Shown here piece by piece: positions 9,243 through 45,200 of a stretch of 64,000 nucleotides of DNA. Made by a program: the position numbers and the translations under genes. The stretch comes from Spongilla lacustris (Eukaryota > Porifera > Demospongiae > Spongillida > Spongillidae). The DNA is taken from assembly GCA_949361645.1 (NCBI GenBank), contig OX442423.1, positions 4,522,023 through 4,586,022 of the forward strand, written 5' to 3'. How positions within the stretch are numbered: the stretch's first letter is position 1; each line of letters starts with the position of its first letter. Below the pieces are notes generated by a model that worked only from the letters and a program-made list of their open reading frames with translations, ran no database searches and was not told where the DNA came from.

Positions 9243-9535
9243 GAGACTACAATCTCGATCCTGGTACTACTTTATACGGTCGTGTTAACTGGTACACGTG
9301 CACTCTGTTTAAACAAGAAGAATCGCTATTTGATTGTTTTGTCATTTTCCGGAGAAAAATTGAAATTATGATGTCATGCCTTAAGGCAGTCGTCACGGCT
9401 GTTTCATTGCATTGAAAAGATGGACATTAGGTCTCGTCCCCATACTTGGCGGAAGAAGATTTAATGGAGACCGCATTATAGCATAGCATTGGAATGTGGG
9501 CTCTATTGTAAAATCCGTTCTAGGTAAGCTTTATA
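9243..9535. other. Upstream region of P450 gene A
   Basis: Likely contains the promoter of gene A (transcribed leftwards). No TATA box could be assigned with confidence. Confidence 0.4.
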
Positions 9536-9576
9536 CACCGTGTGGAAGTTAGCCCCACATTCCTCAGCCGCACATT
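9536..9576 (+). repeat. 41-bp inverted repeat, left copy
   Basis: Matches the reverse complement of 23168-23208 with one mismatch. The pair brackets the satellite. Both copies can be read as AAEECGANF.TV, so it may be a fragment of a dispersed sequence rather than an element end. Confidence 0.7.
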
Positions 9577-9689
9577 TTAAAATGAATAAGTTTAACATTC
9601 CTCATGCGGCGGGCGCAGAAGCGCGCGCTTAATAGATCGTGAACGTAAACAAACACTAAGCGATGTGTTGTATGGACTTGCTTCGCCGT

Positions 9690-12600
9690 GATCGTGAGCC
9701 GTGCCATGTAGTCACAGGGTAGATGTGTACCTGTGCCAACCACGGATTCAACATCACGCGCGGATCCTGAACACTGAACCAGCTTGGAGCGTGACCACAA
9801 CTAATAAGTACTTACAAGCTGACCTATGGAGATGGATGTCATTCTTGTGAGTTACAAAACACACTGAGGCAAGCTCTGAGCTGTTTCATATACCCACAGG
9901 GTAGCTGTTTCTATGTGCCAATCAGGGACCCAACGTCACGTGAACACTTGGAGGTGTGACCACAACTAATATGGAGATGTCTTGTGAGTTGCAAAGCACA
10001 TTGAGCCATGCTCTGAGCTGTTTCATGTACCCACAGAGTAGGTGTGTCTATGTGCCAACCAGGGACCCAACGTCATGCGCAGATTGATGAACTATAGACC
10101 CATGTGACCACAACTACTAAATTGTAACCTATGAAGATGGATGTCATTCTTGTGAGTTGCAAGACACATTGAGCCATGCCTTGGGGCTGTTTCATGTACC
10201 CACAGGGTAGGTGTGTATATGTGCCAACCAGGGACCCAATGTCACGTGCGGATTTTGAACAACTGCATGGATGAACTATGGACCCAGTGACCACAACTAA
10301 TGAGTACTTACAAATTCTGACCTATGAAGATGGATGTCTTTCTTGTGAGTTGTAAAGCACATTGAGCCATGCTCTGAGCTGTTTCATGTACCCACAGGGT
10401 AGGTGTGTCTATGTGCCAACCAGGGACCCAACGTCACGCGCGGATTTTGAACAAGTGGATGAACTATGGACCCCTGTGACCACAACTAATAAGTACTTGC
10501 AAATTAAGATGGATGTCATTCTTGTGAGTTGCAAAACACATTGAGCCATGCTCTGAGCTGTTTCATGTACCCACAGGGTAGGTGTGTCTATGTGCCAACC
10601 AGGGACCCAACGTCAAGCGCGGATTTTGAACAAGTGGATGAACTATGGACCCCTGTGACCACAACTACTAAATTCTAACCTATGAAGATGGATGTCATTC
10701 TTGTGAGTTACAAAACACATTGAGCCATGTTCTAAGCTGTTTCATGTACCCACAGGGTAGATGTGTCTATGTGCCAACCAGGGACCCAACGTCACGCGCG
10801 GATTTTGAACAAGTGGATGAACTATGGACCCCTGTGACCACAACTAATAAGTACTTGCAATTTAAGATGGATGTCATTCTTTTGAGTTACAAAACACATT
10901 GAGCCATGCTCTGAGCTGTTTCATGTACCCACAGGGTAGGTGTGTCTATCTGCCAACCAGGGACCCAACGTCACACGCGGATTTTGAACAAGTGGATGAA
11001 CTATGGACCCATGTAAGCATATCTAATAAGTATTTGTAAATTAAGATGGATGTCATTCTTGTGAGTTACAAAACACATTGAGTCATGTTATAAGCTGTTT
11101 CATGTACCCACAGGGTAGGTGTGTCTATGTGCCAACCAGGGACCCAACGTCACGCGCGGATTTTGAACAAGTGGATGAACTATGGACCCCTGTGACCACA
11201 ACTAATAAGTACTTGCAAATTAAGATGGATGTCATTCTTGTGAGTTGCAAAACGCATTGAGCCATGCTCTGAGCTGTTTCATGTACCCACAGGGTAGATG
11301 TGTTTATGTGCCAACCAGGGACCCAACGTCACGCGCCGATTTTGAACAAGTGGATGAACTATGGACCCCTGTGACCACGTCTAATAAGTATTTGCAATTT
11401 AAGATGGATGTCATTCTTGTGAGTTGCAAAACACATTGAGCCATGCTCTGAGCTGTTTCATGTACCCACAGGGTAGGTGTGTCTATGTGCCAACCAGGGA
11501 CCCAACGTCACGCGCGGATTTTGAACAAGTGGATGAACTATGGACCCCTGTGACCACAACTAATAAGTATTTGCAATTTAAGATGGATGTCATTCTTGTG
11601 AGTTGCAAAACACATTGAGCCATGCTCTGAGCTGTTTCATGTACCCACAGGGTAGGTGTGTCTATGTGCCAACCAGGGACCCAACGTCACGCGCGGATTT
11701 TGAACAAGTGGATGAACTATGGACCCCTGTGACCACAACTAATAAGTACTTGCAAATTAAAATGGATGTCATTCTTGTGAATTACAAAACACATTGAGCC
11801 ATGCTATGAGCTGTTTCATGTGCCCACAGGGTAGGTGTGTCTATGTGCCAACCAGGGACCCAACGTCATGCACGGATTTTGAACAAGTGGATGAACTATG
11901 GACCCATGTGACCACAATTACTAAATTCTAACCTATGAAGATGGATGTCATTCTTGTGAGTTGCAAAACACATTGAGCCATGTTCTAAGCTGTTTCATGT
12001 ACCCACAGGGTAGGTGTGTCTATGTGCCAACCAGGGACCCAACGTCACGCGTGGAATTTGAACAAGTGGATGAACTATGGACCCCTGTGACCACAACTAA
12101 CAAGTACTTGCAATTTAAGATGGATGTCATTCTTGTGAGTTGCAAAACACATTGAGCCATGCTCTGAGCTGTTTCATGTACCCACAGGGTAGGTGTGTCT
12201 ATGTGCCAACCAGGGACCCAACGTCACGCGCGGATTTTGAACAAGTGGATGAACTATGGACCCCTGTGACCACAATTACTAAATCCTAACCTATGAAGAT
12301 GGATGTCATTCTTGTGAGTTGCAAAACACATTCAGCCATGTTCTAAGCTGTTTCATGTACCCACAGGGTAGGTGTGTCTATGTGCCAACCAGGGACCCAA
12401 CGTCACGCGCGGAATTTGAACAAGTGGATGAACTATGGACCCCTGTGACCACAACTAACAAGTACTTGCAATTTAAGATGGATGTCATTCTTGTGAGTTA
12501 CAAAACACATTGAGCCATGCTCTGAGCTGTTTCATGTGCCCACAGGGTAGGTGTGTTTATGTGCCAACCAGGGACCCAACGTCACGCGCCGATTTTGAAC

Positions 12601-15600
12601 AAGTGGATGAACTATGGACCCCTGTGACCACATCTAATAAGTATTTATAAATTAAGATGGATGTCATTCTTGTGAGTTACAAAACACATTGAGCCATGGT
12701 CTGAGCTGTTTCATGTACCCACAGGGTAGGTGTGTCTATGTGCCAACCAGGGACCCAACGTCATGCGCGGATTTTGAACAAGTGGATGAACTATGGACCC
12801 CTGTGACCACAACTAATAAGTACTTGCAAATTAAGATGGATGTCATTCTTGTGAGTTGCAAAACACATTGAGCCATGCTCTGAGCTGTTTCATGTACCCA
12901 CAGGGTAGATGTGTTTATGTGCCAACCAGGGACCCAACGTCACGCGCCGATTTTGAACAAGTGGATGAACTATGGACCCCTGTGACCACAACTAATAAGT
13001 ATTTGCAATTTAAGATGGATGTCATTCTTGTGAGTTGCAAAACACATTGAGCCATGCTCTGAGCTGTTTCATGTACCCACAGGGTAGGTGTGTCTATGTG
13101 CCAACCAGGGACCCAACGTCACGCGCCGATTTTGAACAAGTGGATGAACTATGGACCCATGTGACCACAATTACTAAATTCTAACCTATGAAGATGGATG
13201 TCATTCTTGTGAGTTGCAAAACACATTGAGCCATGTTCTAAGCTGTTTCATGTACCCACAGGGTAGGTGTGTCTATGTGCCAACCAGGGACCCAACGTCA
13301 CGCGCGGATTTTGAACTAGTGGATGAACTATGGACCCATGTGACCACAATTACTAAATTCTGACCTATGAAGATGGATGTCATTCTTGTGAGTTGCAAAG
13401 CGCACTGAGGCAAGCTCTGAGCTGTTTCATGTACCCACAGGGTAGATGTGTCTATGTGCCAACCAGGGACCCAACGTCAAGCGCGGATTTTGAACAAGTG
13501 GATGAACTATGGACCCCTGTGACCACAACTAATAAGTATTTGCAATTTAAAATGGATGTCATTCTTGTGAGTTGCAAAACACATTGAGCCATGCTCTGAG
13601 CTGTTTCATGTACCCACAGGGTAGATGTGTTTATGTGCCAACCAGGGACCCAACGTCACGCGCCGATTTTGAACAAGTAGATGAACTATGGACCCCTGTG
13701 ACCACATCTAATAAGTATTTGCTATTTAAGATGGATGTCATTCTTGTGAGTTGCAAAACACATTGAGCCATGCTCTGAGCTGTTTCATGTACCCACAGGG
13801 TAGGTGTGTCTATGTGCCAACCAGGGACCCAACGTCACGCGCGGATTTTGAACAAGTGGATGAACTATGGACCCATGTGACCACAATTACTAAATTCTAA
13901 CCTATGAAGATGGATGTCATTCTTGTGAGTTGCAAAACACATTAGCCATGTTCTAAGCTGTTTCATGTACCCACAGGGTAGGTGTGTCTATGTGCCAACC
14001 AGGGACCCAACGTCACGCGCGGATTTTGAACTAGTGGATGAACTATGGACCCATGTGACCACAATTACTAAATTCTGACCTATGAAGATGGATGTCATTC
14101 TTGTGAGTTGCAAAGCGCACTGAGGCAAGCTCTGAGCTGTTTCATGTACCCACAGGGTAGGTGTGTCTATCTGCCAACCAGGGACCCAACGTCAAGCGCG
14201 GATTTTGAACAAGTGGATGAACTATGGACCCCTGTGACCACAACTAATAAGTATTTGCAATTTAAAATGGATGTCATTCTTGTGAGTTGCAAAACACATT
14301 GAGCCATGCTCTGAGCTGTTTCATGTACCCACAGGGTAGATGTGTCTATGTGCCAACCAGGGACCCAACGTCACGCGCGGATTTTGAATAAGTGGATGAA
14401 CTATGGACCCCTGTGACCACAACTAATAAGTACTTGCAATTTAAGATGGATGTCATTCTTGTGAGTTGCAAAACACATTAGCCATGCTTTGAGCTGTTTC
14501 ATGTACCCACAGGGTAGATGTGTCTATGTGCCAACCAGGGACCCAACGTCATGCGCGGATTTTGAACAAGTAGATGAACTATGGACCCATGTGACCACAA
14601 TTACTAAATTCTAACCTATGAAGATGGATGTCATTCTTGTGAGTTGCAAAGCGCACTGAGGCAAGCTCTAAGCTGTTTCATGTACCCACGGGGTAGGTGT
14701 GTTTATGTGCCAACCAGGGACCCAACGTCACGCGCCGATTTTGAACAAGTGGATGAACTATGGACCCCTGTGACCACATCTAATAAGTATTTGTAAATTA
14801 AGATGGATGTCATTCTTGTGAGTTGCAAAACACATTGAGCCATGTTCTAAGCTGTTTCATGTAACCACAGGGTAGATGTGTCTATGTGCCAACCAGGGAC
14901 CCAACGTCACCCGCGGATTTTGAACAAGTGGATGAACTATGGACCCCTGTGACCACAACTAATAAGTACTTGCAATTTAAGATGGATGTCATTCTTTTGA
15001 GTTACAAAACACATTGAGCCATGCTCTGAGCTGTTTCATGTACCCACAGTGTCTATGTGCCAACCAGGGACCCAACGTCACGCGCGGATTTTGAACAAGT
15101 GGATGAACTATGGACCCCTGTGACCACAACTAATAAGTACTTGCAAATTAAAATGGATGTCATTCTTGTGAATTACAAAACACATTGAGCCATGCTCTGA
15201 GCTGTTTCATGTGCCCACAGGGTAGGTGTGTCTATGTGCCAACCAGGGACCCAACGTCATGCACGGATTTTGAACAAGTGGATGAACTATGGACCCATGT
15301 GACCACAATTACTAAATTCTAACCTATGAAGATGGATGTCATTCTTGTGAGTTGCAAAACACATTGAGCCATGTTCTAAGCTGTTTCATGTACCCACAGG
15401 GTAGGTGTGTCTATGTGCCAACCAGGGACCCAACGTCACGCGTGGAATTTGAACAAGTGGATGAACTATGGACCCCTGTGACCACAACTAACAAGTACTT
15501 GCAATTTAAGATGGATGTCATTCTTGTGAGTTGCAAAACACATTGAGCCATGCTCTGAGCTGTTTCATGTACCCACAGGGTAGGTGTGTCTATGTGCCAA

Positions 15601-18600
15601 CCAGGGACCCAACGTCACGCGCGGATTTTGAACAAGTGGATGAACTATGGACCCCTGTGACCACAATTACTAAATCCTAACCTATGAAGATGGATGTCAT
15701 TCTTGTGAGTTGCAAAACACATTCAGCCATGTTCTAAGCTGTTTCATGTACCCACAGGGTAGGTGTGTCTATGTGCCAACCAGGGACCCAACGTCACGCG
15801 CGGAATTTGAACAAGTGGATGAACTATGGACCCCTGTGACCACAACTAACAAGTACTTGCAATTTAAGATGGATGTCATTCTTGTGAGTTACAAAACACA
15901 TTGAGCCATGCTCTGAGCTGTTTCATGTGCCCACAGGGTAGGTGTGTCTATGTGCCAACCAGGGACCCAACGTCACGCGCGGATTTTGAACAAGTGGATG
16001 AACTATGGACCCCTGTGACCACAACTAATAAGTACTTGCAAATTAAAATGGATGTCATTCTTGTGAGTTGCAAAACACATTGAGCCATGCTCTGAGCTGT
16101 TTCATGTACCCACAGGGTAGGTGTGTCTATGTGCCAACCAGGGACCCAACGTCACGCGCCGATTTTGAACTAGTGGATGAACTATGGACCCATGTGACCA
16201 CAATTACTAAATTCTAACCTATGAAGATGGATGTCATTCTTGTGAGTTGCAAAACACATTGAGCCATGTTCTAAGTTGTTTCATGTACCCACAGGGTAGG
16301 TGTGTCTATGTGCCAACCAAGGACCCAACGTCATGCGCGGATTTTGAACAAGTGGATGAACTATGGACCCCTGTGACCACAACTAATAAGTACTTGCAAA
16401 TTAAAATGGATCTCATTCTTGTGAGTTACAAAACACATTGAGCCATGCTCTGAGCTGTTTCATGTGCCCACAGGGTAGGTGTGTTTATGTGCCACCCAGG
16501 GACCCAACGTCACGCGCCGATTTTGAACAAGTGGATGAACTATGGACCCCTGTGACCACATCTAATAAGTATTTATAAATTAAGATGGATGTCATTCTTG
16601 TGAGTTACAAAACACATTGAGCCATGCTCTGAGCTGTTTCATGTACCCACAGGGTAGGTGTGTCTATGTGCCAACCAGGGACCCAACGTCATGCGCGGAT
16701 TTTGAACAAGTGGATGAACTATGGACCCCTGTGACCACAACTAATAAGTACTTGCAAATTAAGATGGATGTCATTCTTGTGAGTTGCAAAACACATTGAG
16801 CCATGCTCTGAGCTGTTTCATGTACCCACAGGGTAGATGTGTTTATGTGCCAACCAGGAACCCAACGTCACGCGCCGATTTTGAACAAGTGGATGAACTA
16901 TGGACCCCTGTGACCACATCTAATAAGTATTTGCAATTTAAGATGGATGTCATTCTTGTGAGTTGCAAAACACATTGAGCCATGCTCTGAGCTGTTTCAT
17001 GTACCCACAGGGTAGGTGTGTCTATGTGCCAACCAGGGACCCAACGTCACGCGCGGATTTTGAACAAGTGGATGAACTATGGACCCCTGTGACCACAACT
17101 AATAAGTACTTGCAAATTAAAATGGATGTCATTCTTGTGAGTTGCAAAACACATTGAGCCATGCTCTGAGCTGTTTCATGTACCCACAGGGTAGGTGTGT
17201 CTATGTGCCAACCAGGGACCCAACGTCACGCGCCGATTTTGAACTAGTGGATGAACTATGGACCCATGTGACCACAATTACTAAATTCTAACCTATTTAG
17301 ATGGATGTCATTCTTGTGAGTTGCAAAACACATTGAGCCATGTTCTAAGCTGTTTCATGTACCCACAGGGTAGGTGTGTCTATGTGCCAACCAAGGACCC
17401 AACGTCATGCGCGGATTTTGAACAAGTGGATGAACTATGGACCCCTGTGACCACAACTAATAAGTACTTGCAAATTAAGATGGATGTCATTCTTGTGAGT
17501 TGCAAAACACATTGAGCCATGCTCTGAGCTGTTTCATGTACCCACAGGGTAGATGTGTTTATGTGCCAACCAGGGACCCAACGTCACGCGCCGATTTTGA
17601 ACAAGTGGATGAACTATGGACCCCTGTGACCACATCTAATAAGTATTTGCAATTTAAGATGGATGTCATTCTTGTGAGTTGCAAAACACATTGAGCCATG
17701 CTCTGAGCTGTTTCATGTACCCACAGGGTAGGTGTGTCTATGTGCCAACCAGGGACCCAACGTCACGCGCGGATTTTGAACAAGTGGATGAACTATGGAC
17801 CCCTGTGACCACAACTAATAAGTACTTGCAAATTAAAATGAATGTCATTCTTGTGAGTTGCAAAACACATTGAGCCATGCTCTGAGCTGTTTCATGTACC
17901 CACAGGGTAGGTGTGTCTATGTGGCAACCAGGGACCCAACGTCACGTGCTGATTTTGAACTAGTGGATGAACTATGGACCCATGTGACCACAATTACTAA
18001 ATTCTAACCTATGAAGATGGATGTCATTCTTGTGAGTTGCAGAACACATTGAGCCATGTTCTAAGCTGTTTCATGTACCCACAGGGTAGGTGTGTCTATG
18101 TGCCAACCAGGGACCCAACGTCACGCGCGGATTTTGAACTAGTGGATGAACTATGGACCCATGTGACCACAATTACTAAATTCTGACCTATGAAGATGGA
18201 TGTCATTCTTGTGAGTTGCAAAGCGCACTGAGGCAAGCTCTGAGCTGTTTCATGTACCCACAGGGTAGATGTGTCTATGTGCCAACCAGGGACCCAACGT
18301 CAAACGCGGATTTTGAACAAGTGGATGAACTATGGACCCCTGTGACCACAACTAATAAGTATTTGCAATTTAAAATGGATGTCATTCTTGTGAGTTGCAA
18401 AACACATTGAGCCATGCTCTGAGCTGTTTCATGTACCCACAGGGTAGATGTGTCTATGTGCCAACCAGGGACCCAACGTCACGCGCGGATTTTGAATAAG
18501 TGGATGAACTATGGACCCCTGTGACCACAACTAATAAGTACTTGCAAATTAAAATGGATGTCATTCTTGTGAGTTGCAAAACACATTGAGCCATGCTCTG

Positions 18601-21295
18601 AGCTGTTTCATGTACCCACAGGGTAGATGTGTCTATGTGCCAACCAGGGACCCAACGTCATGCGCGGATTTTGAACAAGTAGATGAACTATGGACCCATG
18701 TGACCACAATTACTGAATTCTAACCTATGAAGATGGATGTCATTCTTGTGAGTTGCAAAGCGCACTGAGGCAAGCTCTGAGCTGTTTCATGTACCCACAG
18801 GGTAGATGTGTCTATGTGCCAACCAGGGACCCAACGTCAAGCGCGGATTTTGAACAAGTGGATGAACTATGGACCCCTGTGACCACAACTAATAAGTATT
18901 TGCAATTTAAGATGGATGTCATTCTTGTGAGTTGCAAAACACATTGAGCCATGCTCTGAGCTGTTTCATGTACCCACAGGGTAGGTGTGTCTATGTGCCA
19001 ACCAGGGACCCAACGTCAAGCGCGGATTTTGAACAAGTGGATGAACTATGGACCCCTGTGACCACAACTAATAAGTATTTGCAATTTAAGATGGATGTCA
19101 TTCTTGTGAGTTGCAAAACACATTGAGCCATGCTCTGAGCTGTTTCATGTACCCACAGGGTAGGTGTGTCTATGTGCCAACCAGGGACCCAACGTCACGC
19201 GCCGATTTTGATCAAGTGGATGAACTATGGACCCATGTGACCACAATTACTAAATTCTAACCTATGAAGATGGATGTCATTCTTGTGAGTTGCAAAACAC
19301 ATTGAGCCATGTTCTAAGCTGTTTCATGTACCCACAGGGTAGGTGTGTCTATGTGCCAACCAGGGACCCAACGTCACGCGCGGATTTTGAACAAGTGGAT
19401 GAACTATGGACCCCTGTGACCACAACTAATAAGTACTTACAAATTCTGACCTATGAAGATGGATGTCTTTCTTGTGAGTTGCAATGCACATTGAGCCATG
19501 CTCTGAGCTGCTTCATGTACCAACAGGGTTGATGTGTCCATGTGCCAACCAGGGACCCAACGTCACGCGCGGATTTTGAACTAGTGGATGAACTATGGAC
19601 CCATGTGACCACAACTACTAAATTCTGACCTATGAAGATGGATGTCATTCTTGTGAGTTGCAAAGCGCACTGAGGCAAGCTCTAAGCTGTTTCATGTACC
19701 CACGTGGTAGGTGTGTTTATGTGCCAACCAGGGACCCAACGTCACGCGCCGATTTTGAACAAGTGGATGAACTATGGACCCCTGTGACCACAACTAATAA
19801 GTATTTGCAAATTAAGATGGATGTCATTCTTGTGAGTTACAAAGTACATTGAGCCATGCTCTGAGCTGTTTCATGTACCCACAGTGTAGGTGTGTCTATG
19901 TGCTAACCAGGGACCCAACGTCACGCGCGGATTTTGAACAAGTGGATGAACTATGGACCCATGTGACCACAACTACTAGATTCTAACCTATGTAGATGGA
20001 TATCATTGTTGTGAGTTGCAATACACATTGAGCCATGCTCTGAGCTGTTTCATGTACCCACAAGGCAGATGTGTCTATGTGCCAACCAGGGACCCAACGT
20101 CACGCGCGGATTTTGAACAAGTGGATGAACTATGGACCCCTGTGACCACAACTAATAAGTACTTACAAATTCTGACCTATGAAGATGGATGTCTTTCTTG
20201 TGAGTTGCAATGCACATTGAGCCATGCTCTGAGCTGCTTCATGTACCAACAGGGTTGATGTGTCCATGTGCCAACCAGGGACCCAACGTCACGCGCGGAT
20301 TTTGAACAAGTGGATGAACTATGGACCCATGTGACCACATTACTAAATTCTAACCTATGAAGATGGATGTCATTCTTGTGAGTTGAAAAACACATTGAGC
20401 CATGCTCTTAGCTGTTTCTTGTACCCACATGGTAGGTGTGTCTATATGCCAACCAGGGACCCAACGTCATGCGCGGATTTTGAACAAGGGGGTGAACTAT
20501 GGACCCATGCATGTGACCACAAGTAATAAGTACCTGCAAATTAAGATGGATGTCATTCTTGTGAGTTGCAATACACATTGAGCCATGCTCTGAGCTGTTT
20601 TATGTATCCACAGGGTAGATGTGTCTATGTGCCAACCAGGGACCCAACGTCACGCGCGGATTTTGAACAAGTGGATCAACTATGTACCCATGTAAGCACA
20701 GCTATCCTATGAATATGGATGTCATTCTTGTGAGTTGCAAAGTGCATTGAGGCAGGCTCTGAGCTGTTTCATGTACCCACAGGGTAGGTGTGTCTATGTG
20801 CTAACCAAGGAACCAACGTCATGCGCGGAATTTGAACAAGTGGATGAACTATGGACCCATGTGACCACAACTAATACGTACTTACAAATTCTGACCTATG
20901 AAGATGGATGTCATTCTTGTGAGTTGCAAAGCACAAGGAGGCAAGCTCTGAGCTGTTTTATGTACCCACAGGGTAGGTGTGTCTGTGTACCAATCATGCA
21001 GGGACCCAACGTCATGCGCAGACGTTGAACACTGTATCAACTGGAGGTGTGACCACAACTTATTAAGTACTTACAAGTTGACCTATAGAGATGGATGTCA
21101 TTCTTGTGATTTGCAAAGCACATTTCATTAGGCTAGATCTGAGCTGTTCTGTGTACCCACAGGGTAGGTGTGTTAGTGTGCCAACTATTGATCCAATATC
21201 ATACGCCGATCATCCTGAAAACTAGTCCAGCTGGGGTTTTCACTGCAGCAATGAAGTATGACCTAATGAGCTGGATGCCGTTCTTGTGAGTTGTA
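9690..21295 (+). repeat. 179-bp tandem satellite array, about 64 units
   Basis: A head-to-tail array with period 179 bp, anchored by gagctgtttcatgtacccac and acccaacgtcacgcgcggat in each unit. Two interdigitated variants exist. Type A carries aataagtacttgcaaatt and type B carries tactaaattctaacctatga before the shared gatggatgtcattcttgtga. Central units are very similar, while the outermost units (before about 10300 and after about 20700) are degenerate, the usual result of homogenisation. Each type A unit holds a 64-codon open frame, but 179 is not a multiple of three and the frame ends in every unit, so I do not call genes here. Confidence 0.95.
11800..15920 (+). repeat. Higher-order duplication within the satellite (offset 3391 bp)
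   Basis: Private variants recur 3391 bp apart: catgcacgga at about 11866 and 15257; cgtggaattt at about 12055 and 15446; acattcagcc at about 12328 and 15719. 3391 is 19 units minus 10 bp; one deletion that helps explain the shortfall removes ggtaggtg-type bases at about 15048. Later units repeat at 3928 bp (12689 and 16617; 12856 and 16784), i.e. three more units. Confidence 0.8.
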
Positions 21296-23586
21296 ATATA
21301 TTGGTTTTATATATGTGATTTGATGTGTATTATTATCATCTAGATCCATCAAACAGTTCATCAGGACCTTTGTCATAGAGGATGCAGTTGTACTCTGAAC
21401 TTTTTATCTGTTATGTATCTTGTTTACCTACATGTACTGACATAAATTTGTAATGTGAATAATGATTATGATTTCATTGGTTGAAGTTTGTTAATTATGC
21501 ATGTATTTGTGTACTTGTGTTTGTGTGTATTTTATAGCCACCTCTGTAGACGAAAGCACAATTTTGAGCCTAGTGCACTTGCAAAATACATTGCTGACAT
21601 GCACAGGGGAGACACCTCCAAAAGATGCATCATGTAATGAATGAAGTGGTTACTTGTACCTTGCTGCACAAGCTTTGTTGGGAAAATCAAATCCACATGC
21701 ATCCTTTGACATTTTTATGGCAGCAGTTAATAAAAGTTATATCATTTAGGTATACTGATATAATATTTGTATCCAATAGGCAGCAAGGCTGAATTCGGAG
21801 GATTTTCATACCTCCATACCCATGGCCAGATAGAGGGTTTATAAATTCATTGCTTGGAGTGTAGGCACATTTGCATGACTTGTAATTCAAACATAGGACA
21901 TGATGGAATGCAAATGTTCTATGCATGACTAAATTATCACATGATGATGAGCTATACCCACTACAAGAAGCAGACTGCATGATGCACCATAAATTATTCA
22001 TGGAAATTTTGTTAGACAAGCACGAGCATCCTATCATAGATTAAGAATACGTCTGCACAAACTGTCACTGCAACTTCAAGTGAAGGTCACATTTGCAGCA
22101 AAGCGTCATTCAGTGCATGATAATGGTAATGGTCTATAGCAATGGTGATTGTAGTGGTGATGAAGGATGTGGTGGCACTGCTGATGCTGGCATGGGGTTA
22201 TATTGTCAGTGATAATACATATGTACAAGAATAAAAATACCCCAAATGAACCTGGTGATGATAACAATTCTGCTGAGAGTTCTACATGACTACAATGGCA
22301 ACTTGGAGAAAGACACAACAATGCTACGTGAACACACCAGACTAGGATGATATATGTGCACCGCTGAAGCGGGGAAGGGAACATTATACCTCAGATACTT
22401 TCCATCTATGACCCTACAATTAAGGAGTATATACCGTATTATGTAAAGCAATTATATGTTATCCCAGCTGCATTAAAAAGTGAAACCCATGCAGTGCCCC
22501 ATTTACAAGAGAAGTAAGAAGCACTGTGAAAGAATTTCAAGTACAACATTCTAGCCAACTACATGTACAGGACTGAAATATACCCTTACACATTATTCTA
22601 GCCAACTCTGAATATCAGAGATCATTAGTGTAAGATCACATTATACCTGAAGAACACCAAAACTGTGGGAAAAATTCTGGAACCTAATCCGAAGGGGCCC
22701 ATTCAACATTGTCAAGGTAAGGTATGTCATGCATGTAATGGTTACTTTAACAGGCATCAGAAATCCAGCTTCAGTCTATCAGTACTGCTTCTATTTAGTC
22801 ATACATTATTTGCATGGTCAGAGGTACATACATTTGTAGCAATTTGTGTATTTAGTTTTTTTTTTTTAATATTAATGCCTTTCAGGTTGTGACCAATTTT
22901 ATCGGTTCAGTATTGCGCAATACTCTGACTTATTGATTTATTATTGTTATTGTTGCTGTTGTGTGTGTGTTTATGTATCGGAAAGAGCGTCATAGAGTGC
23001 ATACAAGACTGTGCATATGTTAAAAGCGTTTTTACGCTTCTATCCGCGTCGTATGCTGGCACACGGTAGTAGACATTATACTTATTTAGTTTTACGCGAC
23101 AATGAAATTCATGTTTTGCTTAGCCGTACGGCTAAACGTATTCATCTCAAAGTAATTATTCCGCAGGAATGTGCGGCTGAGGAATGTGGGGCTAACTTCT
23201 ACACGGTGCTTTATACACATGAGAACATGGGTTAAGCATCCTTCGAGGATTACAGGCATACTAGCGTTATGGTATTTATGTTCACGTACGCCACGATATC
23301 GAGCCTGGACTGATAGCGCTCCATTTGGAGTTATTATCTTCGAAAAAAGTTTTTTCTTTTTTTTGCCTGACAAGTGATCTATAAACTTATACGAGTGTAT
23401 ACAACAGTGTTGTCTCTATGTATTCTTGCTATCTCTGTTGTTAGGCACATTTTCTGTGAGACGTACGAAGGCTCTGAATATGGCAGTTATTGCTAACATG
23501 GCGGAGCGCTTCATTGATTCACCGGTATTCAGTGTACTATTGTAAATGAAATCAATGTCATGAGTATGTATTAACAAAGTTCAGTT
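21296..23586. other. Region between satellite and RAG1-like gene
   Basis: AT-rich. Contains the 41-bp inverted repeat and open frames at 21687-22384 and 23011-23377 with no recognised family. The 3' flank of the RAG1-like gene lies at its right end. Confidence 0.4.
23168..23208 (-). repeat. 41-bp inverted repeat, right copy
   Basis: Partner of 9536-9576. The surrounding 23011-23377 has overlapping open frames on both strands but none that I recognise. Confidence 0.7.
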
Positions 23587-24144
23587 CTAGTGTTCGCGCT
23601 TTCTTTTTCTCGTTCTTATTTCAGGCTTAAGGGCATTAAGAGTAGGACACACACTCAGGTGATGCTCTTGCATGATACATTTTAGCCTTTGCACTTTGTT
23701 TGCCATACAGCCATACGTCCTAGTCCTATACAACTTGTTGAAGTGGGCATGTATGGCTTCAGTGCCTTGTTCTCCCATTAGCCCAAATCCAGCATTGTAT
23801 GTATTCATCCACTTAATGATGTGCATTTCTAGTATATGCATTTTAACTGTCCTCTTTGTTCCTGGGAAAGCAAAGTCAAAATAGCTAAAGAATTCTTCTA
23901 TAGCATAACCTGCAATGAAAGAGACGTAAAAATAAAAAAAGACCTGAAATATAGTTCACATACTGAGTGCTGTCTTTTCTTCTTCAGATACAAAATTCTT
24001 GTTATACAGGATGTGGCACTGAGAAAATAGTGTAAATGCCTTCTTGTATTTCTCACAAAGGGCATTAGCTTCTCCAATGAGTTGTGGTGAGTACTTTTGT
24101 GCTGTGTCTACAAGGGATGTGCACAGTGCATGTGTGTGTTGAGC
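23587..24144 (-). CDS. RAG1-like exons 9-10 (third catalytic block, C-terminus)
   Basis: Exon 9 is 24144-23964 and exon 10 is 23909-23587, with a 54-bp intron. Exon 10 encodes GFGLMGEQGTEAIHAHFNKL, which parallels the RAG1 segment around its catalytic glutamate; the candidate Glu is about residue 922. It ends with a basic tail and TAG at 23589-23587. Confidence 0.74.
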
Positions 24145-27100
24145 CTATGTAAGAATATGTATTACATGTAAGCCGGGCCGAAAGTTGCTGCACATTTTAG
24201 TGTTTACTTACCTGCAATACCTTGTGTACATGATTACCAATAAATGCTCCACCATGGTACTGCTGGCGTTGTACATTCAGGGATTGGAGTACGGCTTCCA
24301 CTCCTTTTACAAATGGCCCCTCAGACACTGCAAACCCCTTTTTCAACTTCACATTCACATCACTGATGTTTTTTTCCTACATCCATTGGCATGAAGACGG
24401 ATAACATATGTGTTTTCTACCATAGTATAGTTACTAACTAACTCTGCTATTTTACTGCTGTAGCTGATGTTTTCCTCTGCAAGACTAGAGAGAAGAGGAC
24501 TGCTTTCTCCCACAATCATTGCAGAGTAGTTGAAGAGATCCTTCAGACTGCTGTATTCATGGTGTAACACTTCCAGCTGCTCCTTAATGTACGAACGCGC
24601 AGCGGGAACCTTGCGGGAACCTAGGTTCCCGCCCGGGAACCACTTTTCGTGCAGTACTTTATCATTATTGGCAAAGTTATGACTCTTTGAGTGATATTAG
24701 TGTATACACCTACCAATGCTGTTTCTTCCCCATAACACTAAACGCCGTACGTTGGCTAGACGCTGAGATATACAATGGTTTCTGGATCCACCTCGCACGC
24801 GTAACTTCCCGTTTGTACGGAAGGTTCCCGCGGCATGGTCCCATTTTAATGGCTACTGTGTAATAGTGGAAGATGCGGTGTTTGTTTTAATCACTCCATA
24901 AGTTAAACAAGTGATGGTTCAGTGTTCCCCATAAATAACTAGACTATAAAATTATCCAATAGGGCTGGAAATTCATAAATAATAAGTACATGAGGTTCCC
25001 GCGCATATAGAGCAAAATCATTGCACGATGAATTCATCTAACGGGTTGTTTTGCAAGTACCGTATTTATAAATTAGCGCACAATAAGAGAGGAGGGGAGG
25101 TTGCCCCGATGTGTCATTGTGCGTATGCATGTGTATTTGAATGATCTACGTTTAATTTTATGCCTGCATGCATGCACGTTGTACTTCGCAATTATGTGTA
25201 GCCAAGAAATGACAAAGGGGTACTTTTAAAAGGTCCCGTCGGCCTCAAGCGTTGAGGCCCAAGGTTCGAATATATCCCCTGCTCGTCGGCACCCGAAAAT
25301 AGAGGTGGCTTTTGATTAAACACGATTTCCAACTTATAGTCTAGGCGCCATTTTACGCTCAATTATTTTCAATAACTTGTACTACCACGCCTTTCTCACA
25401 AGTATTGGTGGTTCCCGGGCGGGAACCTTGTGTGGAAAATTGGTTCCCGCTCGGTTCCCGCGAATAAAAATATAGAATAAAATAAACGTTGGGTCAGGAT
25501 CGTCACTATACAAGTTATACATTCGCATTAAAAGCGGCAGAAATCGTGCATGCATTTTAGCAATACTATTTGCGGGAACCACGCGGGAACCAAACGCTGT
25601 CCGTTCGTACATTAAGTGCTGACAATTCTCTCAATGCAGTTGCATACTCTTCATAGGATGCAGTTGCTAGCCCTGTGTTTGTAGATAACTGCAAGGCGAG
25701 CCTTAGATCCAAGAGGTGGCATTCCTCCTCAAGTAAGGAGTACAGTTTGTAGAATATACCCATTGATATATGTAGTCCTGGAAGGCAGACCTTTAAAAAG
25801 GTATGGATATGTGACTTGATCATCGTATATGTGAATATTTACCTGGGTCAATGGAATATCAAATAAGGGTTCTCCCTTGCAGTTGTTAAAAAATTTCACA
25901 TTCTTTATATCCCCTCCAGATGCTACAAATCTTCTGTAGTCATCAAACATCGACTCAAGTGTCCGTTTGGGAAATGGGGCTCTCAAACTGCAACTTCTTT
26001 CTAGGTCCTCAAGTGTCACCAAACACCATAAACATGGCTGCTTCCCTATGTTAAGGTATGTGAATGTTGTTTACATTTCTAATTTTTAAAAATTCAGCTC
26101 GCATACCACTTGCACCTGAATGGCCATATAGTGCACATATAAACTCATAATCCCCTGATAGAAACACCCTGATGTTGTAATCTCTGTAACAGTAGCAATA
26201 GAGCACAAAGGGATATTAAAATCAAAAGATTTTTTATACTTGGTATATGACTCACTTCCACTGAGATGAACCTAAATTCACCACTTCATCCTTGTATCTG
26301 TCAAGAGCTATATGGAGGTTTGCTATGGTGTCCTGTGCCTCAAAACAAGCAAACACACAAGTACTGTGGATTGAGTTTGGTGAGTTGGTGTTTACAATTT
26401 GAAAGTTCATTTTAAATGCACCGCCGCCTTTATCACCTCCGAGTTTGACCCACACTTCAGTGTCTGGAATTACTCCATTATGCCACGTCAGAGTAGCTGC
26501 ACTGTTTAGAGGAATTAACTGTGCTGATCAGACTGCTAAAACGTAGTATACTTTACCTTTCATTTTCATCTATAAGTTTGGTCACCTTCTGTATGAGGCT
26601 AGGGGTATTAGCATATGCAGCTGCTCTTATCTCATCATCACAAGATGGACGCGAGAAGCAGAAAGGTGCAATTTCTGCTTCTAAATTCTCTCCCAGGATG
26701 TCTTTTGCAATGAGTCGTTGCCTCGTTTCGCTTCCTAACCGTACCCCAGACTGTGCCAACCATCTGAGCATAGAGAAGTGAGATTTAATTTATTTTCACA
26801 CTTGTGTCAAATTACCTTCTTAATGTCCTAAGTTGGTTCCAAGGCAAACCCATTTCAGCTTTCATGGCAAGTCCAGTTTTCGCATCTATTTCTAGTGAAA
26901 TCCCTGCGTCAGCTAGTATCTTCTTTTTTTCTTCACTTCCCAGGGCTCTAATTTCCTCCACGAGGACTTGTTCAGGTTTCTCAGGTGACAGAAGACTCCT
27001 CACTGACTGAACCTCACTGACTCTTCGCTTCAGAGTTTTAGCACTACAATTTTCCTCACTATGGGATGAACGGGCCTTTGTCACTCGCACTAAAGTTAGT

Positions 27101-28133
27101 GGCTGTAAAAGATCAAGATGCATTCAGTTTTAACTGTTAATTTACATACATTGTTTACATATGTATTGTTGTAAGTATCTTACCTAATCTTATTGTCATA
27201 ACTTACAGTTCCTCCCGTCTTGATTTGTAAAATGTTGTCATTTGTACTTTCAGACAGGATTCTCCGAATCACCTTACCAGCCATTTGCTCTTCAAGCACT
27301 TCAGATATGTGGCACTCATGTGAGGGATAGTCACCTGCTCGTACATCCCGATTGCATGTTTCACAGGATATTATTACATCACATAGAAGGCGTTGTATTA
27401 TGTCTGAAGCTGGTTGCACAGAACTTGGTACCAAGTTAACAGCACCATCACAGCATGGACACTGAGTACTGGCTGATGTTGTAATGGCATCAACAATGCA
27501 CTTAGCACACACGACAACATTGCAATGCAACTTCAGTGGCTGTGATAACATTCGTTTGCACATCCAACATGTGAGTAAGTCTATGACGGAAATTACCTGT
27601 GTTGGTGCTAATGCAGGGTCCTTTGTACCACACATGATCTTAGGAGGTGCAATGGTGTTTATATGTAGAAGCAATGCACTTGGTGTGATGCCTGGTGGTC
27701 GCCCTGGTGTTCTTGCCTTTTTAAAGTGGATCCATGAGTGTACATGTATGGTTTCCTGAAATGCATGTATTTGTGTGTGCAATGATTAACCATATGAGGT
27801 CATGCATGTGAATATGTTTACCTTGCATGTACTGGAACAGTGTAAGGACCAATTGTATGGCTTTACCATACACTTATATGGAATCTTCTTCTCAGAAGCT
27901 TCTTTAACCCTAGACATAGCAAGTCTGCAAGATTTGCAGAAGCTGGTTGGAACGTCAGCTGTGTCGTTACTGATTTCAATTTGAAAACATGACTGGAGCT
28001 CCACAGAAAACGTAGCACAGCTATATGTTGTCTCTTGATGACCAGCAGACGCTTTTTTCATCAATCTGTGTCCGCATACCCTGCATAAAAGGTGTACTTG
28101 GCATCTCGGAATATCCATTGCGGTACTGTTCAT
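23587..28133 (-). CDS. RAG1-like protein gene, ten exons, interrupted by an insertion
   Basis: Ten exons join through consistent splice phases: 28133-27822, 27755-27207, 27102-26816, 26763-26557, 26501-26256, 26183-26107, 26045-25843, 25790-24212 (interrupted), 24144-23964 and 23909-23587. Nine introns are 52-104 bp. With the insertion removed and one base restored, the frame spans 978 residues, close to vertebrate RAG1 (about 1040). Residues 1-104 resemble the RAG1 N-terminal zinc region (CRVC, SFCKSC, late H and C). Residues about 165-215 form a RING-like module, followed by a C2H2-like finger. The later exons follow the order of the RAG1/Transib RNase-H core: a GGDKGG block, a C..C pair, an LH..G block and a GEQGTEAIH block. 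Family knowledge suggests a DNA-recombinase/transposase relative or a domesticated copy. The C-terminus is basic (RTRKRKREH). Two disruptions make this allele doubtful as a working gene: a 1024-bp TTAA-flanked insertion in exon 8 and a one-base deletion in an A run at about 24371-24377. Confidence 0.75.
24212..25790 (-). CDS. RAG1-like exon 8, split by a TTAA insertion
   Basis: The right part (25790-25612) encodes LPGLHISMGIFYKLYSLLEE; the left part (24583-24212) continues with KEQLEVLHHEYSSLKDLFN. The frame reads straight through when the 24588-25611 insert and one TTAA are removed. Further left, an A7 run (T7 on the plus strand, about 24371-24377) puts the reading out of frame; eight bases would restore VNVKLKKGFAVSEGPFV. 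The exon ends KVLQ|GTAAGT. The LHISMG motif aligns with RAG1 LHCDIG but lacks its aspartate. Confidence 0.7.
24588..25611. mobile_element. TTAA-flanked non-autonomous DNA element inside RAG1-like exon 8
   Basis: A 1024-bp insert flanked by TTAA on both sides (24584-24587, 25612-25615). Its ends are inverted repeats starting TGTACGAACG, with AGCG following a short mismatch. Inside are many copies of the palindromic string GGTTCCCGCGGGAACC and its pieces near both ends. There is no long ORF. TTAA duplication is the hallmark of piggyBac-type (and Kolobok) transposition. Confidence 0.85.
25843..26183 (-). CDS. RAG1-like exons 6-7 (core, C..C pair)
   Basis: Exon 6 is 26183-26107 and exon 7 is 26045-25843. 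They encode IRVFLSGDYEFICALYGHSG and KQPCLWCLVTLEDL. The GDY..F...G..G..PC..C pattern parallels the zinc-binding C..C in the RAG1 core, between its first two catalytic positions. Exon 7 ends FDIPLTQ at CAG|GTAAAT. Confidence 0.72.
26256..26501 (-). CDS. RAG1-like exon 5 (first catalytic aspartate block)
   Basis: Encodes PDTEVWVKLGGDKGGGAF then KMNFQIVNTNSPNS. The aspartate in GGDKGG (about residue 475) sits where RAG1 has its first catalytic Asp, followed by the same beta-strand pattern. Acceptor aaacag|T avoids an in-frame stop that the upstream cag would create. Donor GAA|GTGAGT. Confidence 0.72.
26557..27102 (-). CDS. RAG1-like exons 3-4
   Basis: Exon 3 is 27102-26816 and exon 4 is 26763-26557, with a 52-bp intron. 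They encode a charged linker (SEEKKKILADAGISLEID) and WLAQSGVRLGSETRQR, then CFSRPSCDDEIRAAAY. No catalytic motif is seen. By position this corresponds to the nonamer-binding / dimerisation region of RAG1, but I see no clear sequence match there. Confidence 0.6.
27207..27755 (-). CDS. RAG1-like exon 2 (RING-like plus zinc finger)
   Basis: 183 codons. The basic segment KKARTPGRPPG has an AT-hook-like GRP core. The RING-like block reads LLTCWMCKRMLSQ, LHCNVVVCAKC and TQCPCCDG. Compared with RAG1, the RING histidine position (C-x-H) reads C-N-V, so one zinc ligand appears to be lost. Then follows SCETCNRD..HEC, a second zinc module. Acceptor ttcag, donor ACT|GTAAGT. Confidence 0.75.
27822..28133 (-). 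CDS. RAG1-like exon 1 (N-terminal zinc region)
   Basis: ATG at 28133; 104 codons. It contains HLLCRVCGHRLMKK, DVPTSFCKSCRLAM and YNWSLHCSSTCK. The spacing C-x2-C, FC-x2-C, W..H..C matches the zinc-binding N-terminal region of RAG1. Donor AAG|GTAAAC. An in-frame ATG follows five codons later, so the exact start is uncertain. Confidence 0.72.
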
Positions 28134-28635
28134 GCACGTGACTTCAATTTATTCATGATCAAACAAACGAAAAGTAACCGTTTTGTTCTCTCACCAGAAA
28201 ATGTGTCTAAGCACGAACTAAACATATATAGAATGTGTAATGATTCCTCTTTACGGAAAGGTAAGTTTCATGCCCAACAGTCAGGCGTTTTTTCGAGAAA
28301 AATTGGTTGCCGTTTGAGTACTTCATACTAAGCTATAATATGACCGTTACCTGCGCGGAGTTAGTAGGCAGGAAAATAACACGTCTCGACAGTGCGCACA
28401 TATCTTATCCAGTACGGAAATGAATGTAGAAAAGCTTAAACGAATAACGTTATTTATTGATAGCTTGTTGTGATTAAAATACGTTTTAGAACACACACCA
28501 CATTTTAATGAGCTCCTTCATTCATCGGGACACTAAGAGTACCGTAAATGTAATACATTTCTAATTAAAAAACCTAATGTCCATCTCGAAACAGCCGTGT
28601 CGTGGCCCTACCACCGCGTTTGGTCGGGAGGTAGG
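28134..28635. other. Upstream region of the RAG1-like gene
   Basis: AT-rich. No transposon-type terminal inverted repeat or RSS-like heptamer was noticed on a read-through, so this gene shows no visible element end here. Confidence 0.4.
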
Positions 28636-28745: not shown

Positions 28746-28841
28746 TACACATGTACCAAGATTTGTTATGCATGAATATCATTATGTTACAAGTAATTCA
28801 AAAACTTCTCTATCGAGAAAGTGATTGGTGGGAAGTAGGTA

Positions 28842-28970
28842 CAGTATGTTAAAGTGAGGTTTGGTAGGATCCTACAACTCACAGTCCTGAATTTGCAAAC
28901 GAAGAAGCCTATTTGCAAATGTAGGACTGTTATAGTTGTAGGATCCTACCAAACCTCACTTAACATACTG
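28842..28970. mobile_element. 129-bp Tc1/mariner-like MITE
   Basis: Inverted repeats of about 38 bp start CAGTATGTTAAAGTGAGGTT, the insert is flanked by TA on both sides (28840-28841, 28971-28972), and there is no coding capacity. CAGT-type ends with TA duplication are typical of Tc1/mariner MITEs. Confidence 0.78.
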
Positions 28971-29069
28971 TACTGGCTCAGCCCCTACCATCAGGTTATG
29001 AATAACTATAATCTTATTGAGCGAGCGCGTGTTCTTCGAGATTGTTGTACTGTCAGTGACAGTGAGGGT

Positions 29070-42200: not shown

Positions 42201-45200
42201 TGGACCGTAACCCTAACCCTAACCCTTGTAAACTTACCCGAAACCCTAACCCTAACCCTAACCCTAATCGCTAACCCAGTGGCTTCGCTTGAATCCAGCT
42301 TATGGACGCCCGCTATTCAGGAAATTGGGTGAAAGTCGTATCTGTGTAACCACCCTTATGGGTGCCCGCTAATCACAATAGAGGGTGAATCAAGCTCCCC
42401 TGAAAAAAAGTAACTATATATATATGCATTTAGATACTTGCAGCTCATTGTCTTACGAACTATAGTCTAATGAACTATACTCATTGTACCCGGTCCCTTT
42501 ACTCCCTCCTGTCCCGGTGTTAGTAATCAGTATCGTTTCCGATAAAAAGGACCTAGCACATATTATAAAAATGTTATAAAAATGGCATTACTTTTGAATT
42601 GCTATAACTTTAGAACGGTTTAATGTCTATTGTCCTGAATGTCCCCCGGAGGTACAATTGTATACCCGGGTGGACAGCAAAAAAGGCTTTTGCCGTTCAG
42701 TCACGAAAGGGACCTATGTCATTTAACGGTACTAGCTTATAGTGCAAGTCTTTTCAGGATTGGGCCGAGATAAACAAGGCTTAAATCCATTTGGTACATG
42801 TAGGACGAGCTGTGCTAGCGGACCTATTCATTATGCTCCGTGCGGATCGGTCGGAGCGTAATGGATAGGTCCGCTAGCATGGGTCATTTTACGAGTACCA
42901 AAAGGATTTAAGCCTTACTTATCTCGGCCCGATCCTGAAAAGACTTGTTCTGTAAGCCAGTACTGTTAAATGCCCCTTCCGTGATCGAACGGCAAAAACA
43001 TTTTTTGCTGTCCACCCAGGTGTCCAATTGTACCCCCGGGTGGACATTCAGGACAATAGACATTAAGTTATCAACTTCCTATTTTCGGCACTTCATACTA
43101 CACCATTTCTGTATGGTAAAGTACATTTTGGGGTCTTGAACATGCTCCATGCCAGTATCGCAACTTCCAATACCCCGAGGGGTTCAAAGTCGCCATAACT
43201 TTTGGCAGGAATGCTCAAATCGCTTCAAATTCGGTTTGTACATAAAGAGGTTCATTAGTTATTGGATTGTTCTGTTCATTAATTTTTATGTCATCCGTTA
43301 CAGAGATACAGTTGAACAAACTACTTGCATGTTTTCCCGCTTGATTCACGCCAATGATATAACCACTTAGTCTGAGGACCAGACCATATATGAGCATATT
43401 CTCATATATGGTCTGGTCCCCAGACTAATAACCACCGCCTCCCCATACATTGAGTGGGATGCGGTTTGCCCAAATCATTGGCGGGAATCGAGCGCGAAAA
43501 CGTGCACGTAGTTTGTTAACTGTATCTCCGTAACGGATGACATAAAAATTAACGAACAGAGCAATCCAATAGCTAAGGGACCTCTATATGTAAAAACCGA
43601 ATTTGGAGCGATTTGAGTATTCCTGTCAAAAGTTATGGCGAGTTTCAACCCCTTGGGGTATCGGACGTCGCGATACTGGCATGGAGCATGTTCAAGACCC
43701 CAAAATGTACTTTACCATAGAGAAATAGTGTAGTATGAAGTGCCGAAAATAGAAAGTTGATAGATTTAACCGTTAGAAAGTTATAGCAAATCAAACATAA
43801 TGCCATTTTTATAACATTTTTTATAATATGCGCTAGGTCCCTTTTCTCGTAAACGATCCCACCCATATGTGTAAACTAAACCTGCATACGTACTGTACAT
43901 ATAAATGTACCATAGGAGATTATGATTAGGAAGGGGGTCATCATATCCCAGGATGGTATGACCCCCCCTCCCCGGTCATCATTGTATCCTAGGATCCCCC
44001 GGTGACCCATGGTCACTGGATCCTAGGGATCCCAAGGATACCGCGCAACCGGGGGGGGGGGGGGGGGGGGGGGGGCGCACCGAAAAGGAGGGTCACCCAA
44101 TCCTCCGACACCAGACCACTTCTATTATGGCGCCGACGGCCCTGATATAAGAGAAGTGCACAGTAAATGTCAATGACATTTAAGAGCTACAACAGGTAAG
44201 ATACAGGTACAAGTATTTGTGAAGTTTACTGCTGTTGCAAGGCCGTAGACAAAGGGGGGCTTGGGGGGGCTTGAGCCCCCCCAAAATTTCCTTGAAAAAA
44301 AAATTAAAAATGTTAACCGTATCTCGTATAATTAGAATTAACCACTTACAGCTGTAATTCATTGATATCGGTCGATCTTGAGTTGTATACAGGGTGTACG
44401 ACGACGTACTATGTCACTGTTGAAGTTCTTTAAGAAGCAAGGTAGCACATCGTCAAACGATCCATCGCACGATGATTTGCCATGCACTAGCAGTAGCTGC
44501 AGCAACAACACGTGCAGCGTGGTGAATATTGAAGTGAGCCAAGAATGTGAAAGTACTAGTGATGCAGTTACTGATTTTACATTACCGGCCCGTGTTTGAA
44601 TTCTTCCTCCTACGCCCAACCAACCAAAAATAAACTTTCCAAAGAGCGTTTTTGGTGCACAACGGAGAGGATTCTCACCAACATGGTATGAAAATTATCC
44701 ATGGTTGCATTACATTCTAGAGGAAGACGCCGTTCTCTGTTTCTATTGTGCTAGTGCTGTTCAACACAAAATGCCAATGACTGGCTATATGGATAGCTTA
44801 TTTAGTCATACTGGTTTCACCAATTGGAAGAAAGCTGTTGATAGATTCAACAAACACGACCAATCTGCGTCACATCGAAATGCTGTTAGCATGGTTCTTG
44901 CAGCCTCTAAAGCTTCTATGGATGTAGGTTTACAAATGAGTAAAGATTATAAAGAAAAACAAGCTCAGAACCGCAAATGTCTGCTCGCAATTGTATCAAC
45001 AGTTCGCTTTCTTGCACGTCAAGGGCTTCCTTTGCGTGGAGCATCTCGAGGCGATAGTTCTGGCAGTGGTGAGATAAACAGTAACTTTATGCAGCTCCTG
45101 CTTCTCAGAAAAGAAGAAATACCAGACCTTGATGCATGGCTTGAGAAGTCACAGGATCGATTTACAAGTCCCGATATTCAGAACGAATTTTTGCAAATTA

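Follow-up and report, generated by a model that had tools for sequence, protein, structure and literature searches.

A multi-exon transposase gene with RAG1-like architecture in a Chapaev-type DNA transposon of the freshwater sponge Spongilla lacustris

Structure of the gene

The analysed stretch of DNA, referred to as the window, comprises 64,000 nucleotides of the Spongilla lacustris genome (assembly GCA_949361645.1, contig OX442423.1, positions 4,522,023 to 4,586,022 of the forward strand). Its minus strand carries a multi-exon gene, considered below as the transposase gene of a Chapaev-type DNA transposon, with the first in-frame ATG at 28133 and the stop codon of the last coding piece at 23587. 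The same limits had been given in a first-pass annotation, which was made from the DNA letters and described the gene as RAG1-like.

Splicing of 12 coding pieces gave a frame of 963 codons, used here for the numbering of residues, and every join in this model had GT/AG ends and agreeing phases. Two of the pieces (25790-25611 and 24582-24421) are a single exon interrupted by a transposable element, hence the original gene has 11 exons and 10 introns. In homologs, however, exon 8 is shorter by six codons at its end, and since a GTTAGT donor is present there, 18 bases ahead of the first one, the analysis suggests a predicted reading frame of 957 codons. The multi-exon structure with consistent splice phases proposed in the first-pass annotation was retained and its counts (about 978 codons, ten exons, nine short introns) were replaced by those above, one gap in the frame being a TTAA-flanked transposable element and not an ordinary intron. 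Many of the splice joins were also found in gene models of Ephydatia muelleri, though those models omit some exons: the P0001 model lacks the start of exon 5, including the first catalytic Asp, and the P0002 model lacks the whole exon 5.

Ends of the transposon

The 5' terminus CACGGCTGTTTCGAG at 28599 was located by homology to L009 (C13:3963800-3970800), which is the closest copy to the gene in the window. This copy is 4,571 bp long between its CACGG and CCGTG ends, consists mostly of the transposase gene and has ACCG on both sides. Its final ~136 bp aligned at 9529-9394, away from the gene, and the flank at the 9394 end was TCGT, the same as the flank at 28600. Terminal inverted repeats (TIRs) of the 5'-CAC..GTG-3' type were present together with a 4-bp target site duplication (TSD), TCGT in the window copy and ACCG in L009, a length within the 3 to 4 bp typical of the Chapaev superfamily. 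After subtraction of two nested insertions and of the target bases that they duplicated, the transposon would measure about 4,498 bp, close to L009. Coordinates of all its parts are given in Table 1.

Two other candidates for the ends were discarded. An inverted repeat of 16 nt on either side of the gene (23441-23456 / 28195-28210) was equalled in only 2 of 2,000 shuffles, but the homology of other copies extends beyond it on both sides and it is internal or due to chance. A 3' end at ~23202 was dropped, since the end at 9394 carries the matching TSD.

Table 1. Parts of the Chapaev-type transposon and its nested insertions (positions in the window)
Feature	Position	Strand	Basis or content
Whole Chapaev-type transposon	9394..28599	-	ends by homology to complete copy L009; two later nested insertions included
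TSD TCGT beside 3' end	9390..9393		flank comparison
3' TIR	9394..9431	+	reads inward CACGGCTGTTTCATTGCATTGAAAAGATGGACATTAGG
Nested inverted-repeat element, 13.7 kb, in transposon 3' untranslated region (UTR)	9537..23207		41-nt terminal repeats, 98%
Transposase gene	23587..28133	-	957-963 codons; splice model and homologs
Exon 11	23587..23909	-	H(4)H motif (H881/H886); catalytic Glu, E907
Exon 10	23964..24144	-	splice model
Exon 9	24212..24376	-	splice model
Exon 8, part after TTAA element	24439..24582	-	first model extended to 24421
TTAA-flanked inverted-repeat element, 1,024 bp, inside exon 8	24588..25611		TIR TGTACGAACG, TSD TTAA
Exon 8, part before TTAA element	25611..25790	-	LH motif L633-H634; the element begins with base 25611, which the spliced reading counts in exon 8
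Exon 7	25843..26045	-	C(2)C zinc pair C564/C567
Exon 6	26107..26183	-	second catalytic Asp D545 (GDYEF)
Exon 5	26256..26501	-	first catalytic Asp D475 (GGDKGG); DUF1280 match
Exon 4	26557..26763	-	splice model
Exon 3	26816..27102	-	splice model
Exon 2	27207..27755	-	RING (from Cys167) and following zinc finger
Exon 1	27822..28133	-	Chapa / RAG1 importin-binding-like zinc region
5' TIR	28573..28599	-	CACGGCTGTTTCGAGATGGACATTAGG
TSD TCGT beside 5' end	28600..28603		flank comparison

Domain composition of the transposase

The order of blocks known from the RAG1 core was recovered as had been proposed, with all catalytic, zinc and LH motifs located (D475, D545, C564/C567, L633-H634, H881/H886 and E907). 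In the Pfam search, the core of the window protein matched DUF1280 (PF06918; E=1.4e-11). Among 15 family members compared with Pfam at E up to 0.01, DUF1280 was detected in 13, RAG1_imp_bd in seven and the RING model in seven; at E up to 0.1, RAG1_imp_bd was matched by four of five family members. Against the PDB, a core-only profile gave 11 matches with E values no higher than 10, and none of them was a RAG1 or Transib chain. Judged by its sequence, the core falls in the Chapaev (DUF1280) clade and not in Transib/RAGL, an assignment that also leans on the available parts of PMC3985635 and PMC4411706.

The N-terminal part gave a different picture. The window protein by itself matched RAG1 in the PDB (E=2.6e-6), and a 12-sequence family profile matched residues 152-376 of mouse RAG1 (E=3.9e-12). 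To rule out a generic-RING match, the pre-RING zinc region was searched separately with a five-sequence profile, which matched a RAG1 fragment (E=4.9e-8) and full-length RAG1 (2.8e-4) in the PDB and nothing else significantly, the next non-RAG1 match having E=1.5. The resemblance to RAG1 is, by these profile scores, greater than chance at the level of the family, and, taken together, the family members show a RAG1-specific sequence in the zinc region and the RING behind it.

The structure predicted for the homolog P0025 contained a core with the RAG1 fold. The fold search found both RAG1 and Transib, RAG1 scored higher than HzTransib, and ~456 residues of the model were aligned with the RAG1 core at 15% identity. 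A prediction for P0004 (15-row alignment) reached a pLDDT (predicted local distance difference test) of 47 and was discarded.

The profile searches and structure comparison that the first-pass annotation had put forward as checks thus gave RAG1 for the N-terminal region, DUF1280 for the core and a RAG1 core fold for the homolog. They upheld its view of a RAG1-related gene outside the jawed-vertebrate line, with the N-terminal region and a RAG1-fold core in one protein. Its RAG1/Transib-like core stood with regard to fold and motif order and gave way to Chapaev with regard to sequence family.

A very large protein set was searched and the best 7,993 candidates were scored, which gave 24 homologs, all from E. 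muelleri or with EukProt 'Em' gene names, taken as this freshwater sponge; the best was 70% identical over 99%. A family-alignment search widened the set to 71 proteins, including those of acorn worm, lancelets and sea urchins.

Copies of the transposon in the genome

The genome (248.6 Mb, 51 contigs) was searched with the protein, giving 141 matched stretches, and 47 of 2,048 first-look candidates were scored. Other copies and TIRs, the presence of which the first-pass annotation had also proposed to check, were found. Sixteen of the twenty loci first fetched (L011-L026) were copies of one ~4.56-kb element, ~97-100% alike pairwise and some of them containing inserts. An exact 4-bp TSD was identified in 13 of the 15 copies counted (L020 was left out). 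These nearly identical copies look recently mobile. A decayed second Chapaev element, a relative of the ~4.56-kb family, was also observed on the plus strand of the window (4012-8940); its ends are CACGG and CAGTG, each flanked by CAGC.

Among the scored candidates, the window copy was the sole long coding copy seen at its identity level, the nearest others being 75% and 70% identical in their best stretches. Exon 1 of L009 is apparently 10 bases short, a loss that breaks the frame, and L010 had no clear 3' end. The ratio of nonsynonymous to synonymous substitution rates (Ka/Ks) of the window copy was 0.16 relative to L009 (Ks 0.81; Nei-Gojobori, 947 codons) and 0.19 relative to L010. L009 was in turn 97-100% identical to E. 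muelleri P0001 in three of seven stretches, the remaining ones having a lower identity and partly spanning introns; such near-identity indicates either a very close host relative or a recent transfer between sponges.

The 5' 466 bp of the window copy were matched at 39 other scored places at 91-93% and its 3' 140 bp at 39 places at 89-95%. Among the matches listed, 27 of the 39 5' ends had a same-strand 3' end within 9 kb, for 24 of them at a distance of 2.3-3.4 kb. In four such end-paired loci, each seen partly, the transposase matches were confined to pieces of the first and/or last exon and no match to the DD part of the core was detected. These loci look like internally deleted derivatives, as judged from their sequence; the idea that they were wholly devoid of transposase was partly wrong, given the exon pieces. 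Three of the four pairs inspected had an exact 4-bp TSD. Members of this family of derivatives, for example at C1:10183935-10187028, have the two ends of the window copy with an identity of 89-95%.

Nested insertions

Two elements entered the transposon after its own insertion, the 13.7-kb element landing in the 3' UTR and the young TTAA element in coding exon 8. The former is bordered by the 9-bp TSD GCTTTATAC at 9528-9536 and 23208-23216, which would fit a Mutator-like element. About 62 copies of a 179-bp satellite fill positions 10086-21185, and one end of the element recurs at 98-100% identity in at least 13 further genomic places, with satellite matches nearby.

The 1,024-bp element, which we take to be a piggyBac-like miniature inverted-repeat transposable element from its TTAA target, has no counterpart at the corresponding position of L009 or L010. 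It had 43 matches in the genome, 12 of them at >=97% (the window copy included), and six of seven copies read were flanked by TTAA, the seventh having CTAA on both sides. Since near-identical copies exist, the insertion is, by sequence comparison, young. The unspliced frame stops 14 codons inside the element, before it reaches either the H2 pair or the catalytic Glu. The window copy is therefore probably disabled by truncation of its protein unless the element is spliced out.

In addition to the Chapaev reading, the element might serve as a ready-made intron, the copy still yielding full-length transposase, which is considered unlikely though not negligible. In the orientation of the gene, the insert offers AAT/GT...AG/GAG splice sites in phase 0 with frame and length kept. 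However, this is a prediction from sequence, and the insertion is too recent for the flanking open frame to argue for splicing. Moreover, open frames spanning the insertion site in six other copies reached at most 104 codons, a length given with no control for chance, and no gene was recognised among them. Slightly more doubtful is the extension to the whole TTAA family as instant introns: with terminal TGTAC and a TTAAG target, GT...AG ends would arise and as many bases would be removed as added, so insertions into coding TTAAG might be nearly neutral and a source of new animal introns. In the window copy and six others, no coding site beyond the transposase gene was recognised.

Assessment of the Chapaev reading and its alternatives

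The gene is interpreted as the transposase of a cut-and-paste DNA transposon of the Chapaev superfamily in a freshwater sponge, with a probability of about 95%, supported by both termini, the TSD and the dispersed copies. Several observations weigh against this interpretation. The 5' and 3' pieces of the window copy lie 13.7 kb apart and were joined through homology to L009 and the shared TCGT. Exact TSDs were not present in L014 and L026, nor in the fourth derivative pair. The window protein alone scored under the Pfam cut-offs for RING (E=0.022) and RAG1_imp_bd (E=0.042), and the assignment of the zinc region and RING is a family-level case. The fold was read from the homolog P0025, which is 44% identical to the window protein, and the splice joins are predicted. 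The Chapaev placement itself draws on Pfam membership and motifs, on the length of the TSD and on published work.

The first-pass annotation left the choice between a domesticated gene and an intron-containing transposon, of which the latter agrees with the termini, TSD and dispersed copies. Recruitment of a Chapaev transposase for a sponge function, with the gene kept as a single copy, would account for the only long coding region at its identity level among the scored candidates, for a frame open save for the TTAA insert and for the low Ka/Ks of 0.16. However, selection acting on active transposons prior to insertion likewise shapes such a ratio when it is taken against a relative. The loss of ends expected of a domesticated gene was not observed, as both termini and an intact 4-bp TSD were recognisable and mark an insertion, and a very young TTAA element sits in a coding exon. 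No E. muelleri orthologue of the window copy was seen among the scored candidates because P0001, the best homolog there, groups with L009. Domestication is therefore regarded as very improbable.

Transib and RAGL elements generally make 5-bp TSDs. The gene could nevertheless be a true member of their line, either ancestral to vertebrate RAG1 or its sister, as its RAG1-like N-terminal region, the same domain order, the RAG1 core fold and the higher score of RAG1 over HzTransib might suggest. Against this stand the lack of RAG1 and Transib chains among the core profile's PDB matches, the membership in DUF1280 and a TSD of 4 bp instead of 5 bp (e.g., CCAGG in the available part of PMC4411706). 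An element of ~4.5 kb also leaves little room for a RAG2-like gene, an argument from size for which no kelch search was made. This origin seems even a little less probable than domestication.

If the Chapaev reading holds, a dimer of the protein would bind the CACGG... terminal repeats, its Asp-Asp-Glu site would nick and then cut at the element ends, and the excised element would be joined to target DNA with a 4-bp stagger, leaving the 4-bp duplication, by analogy with RAG1 and Transib. For the zinc and RING region, what has been reported for RAG1 suggests a possible role in import, dimerisation or ubiquitin ligation.

Other elements in the window

A 715-codon open frame at 44600-46744 encodes a hAT-type transposase with DUF4371 and hAT dimerisation domains. 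The long terminal repeat retrotransposon frame at 56494-59337 has integrase domains preceding the reverse transcriptase, a Copia-like order with Gypsy-like domains, as in Gmr1-type elements. Upstream of the transposon, a palindromic short element was observed at 28839-28973, with 28- and 14-nt arms that are 100% complementary. No Rfam matches were found within the window at gathering thresholds.

Comparison with known systems

Chapaev DNA transposons were reportedly described by Kapitonov and Jurka in 2007. The sponge element resembles them, as described in the available parts of PMC4411706 and PMC4079192, in its DUF1280 core, CAC..GTG termini, 4-bp TSD and C(2)C, LH and H(4)H motifs, as well as in a Chapa zinc domain followed by RING. 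In the accessible text of PMC4411706 (Kapitonov and Koonin), the latter arrangement, 'similar to RAG1', is attributed to two Chapaev subgroups. RAG1_imp_bd, RING and DUF1280 were likewise combined in three Ptychodera flava proteins (P0052, P0064 and P0072), known here as proteins and 26-31% identical to the sponge query P0004. The one-protein combination, considered unusual in the first-pass annotation, is therefore an already known build, and the sponge copy adds a member to Chapaev with RAG1-like architecture. Unlike the described Chapaev elements, it has a sponge host, a gene of ~11 exons and, in the window copy, nested insertions of 13.7 kb and 1 kb. No sponge Chapaev or similar sponge gene was recognised in a partial literature search.

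With vertebrate RAG1, the protein shares the order of zinc region, RING and a DDE core whose zinc ligands are C2 and H2, the N-terminal sequence match and, in the homolog, the predicted core fold. In contrast, its core was not matched to RAG1 in sequence, and RAG1 is a domesticated recombinase working with RAG2. It differs from Transib and RAGL (ProtoRAG) in TSD length and core sequence family, no RAG2L partner was seen, as judged by the size of the element, and the sections available from PMC4411706 describe canonical Transib as devoid of the N-terminal region. Aplysia N-RAG-TP, as presented in the available part of PMC8355894, is also a mobile element with RAG1 N-terminal-like sequence, but is entirely N-terminal-like, without a core. 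In the same text, the zinc and RING region of RAG1 is proposed to stem from that separate element, joined to a Transib core, whereas a common ancestor with the parts already fused is inferred in the portion of PMC4411706 available.

The order of zinc region, RING and RAG1-fold core in sponge transposons fits the latter, ancient-ancestor alternative as far as it is set out there. The presence in a sponge alone is no proof of antiquity, since horizontal transfer of Chapaev elements has been documented (PMC4079192, in the part available). The value of the sponge element lies in its taxonomic reach, in a good predicted structure bridging the Chapaev and RAG1 cores and in likely mobile copies open to assay.
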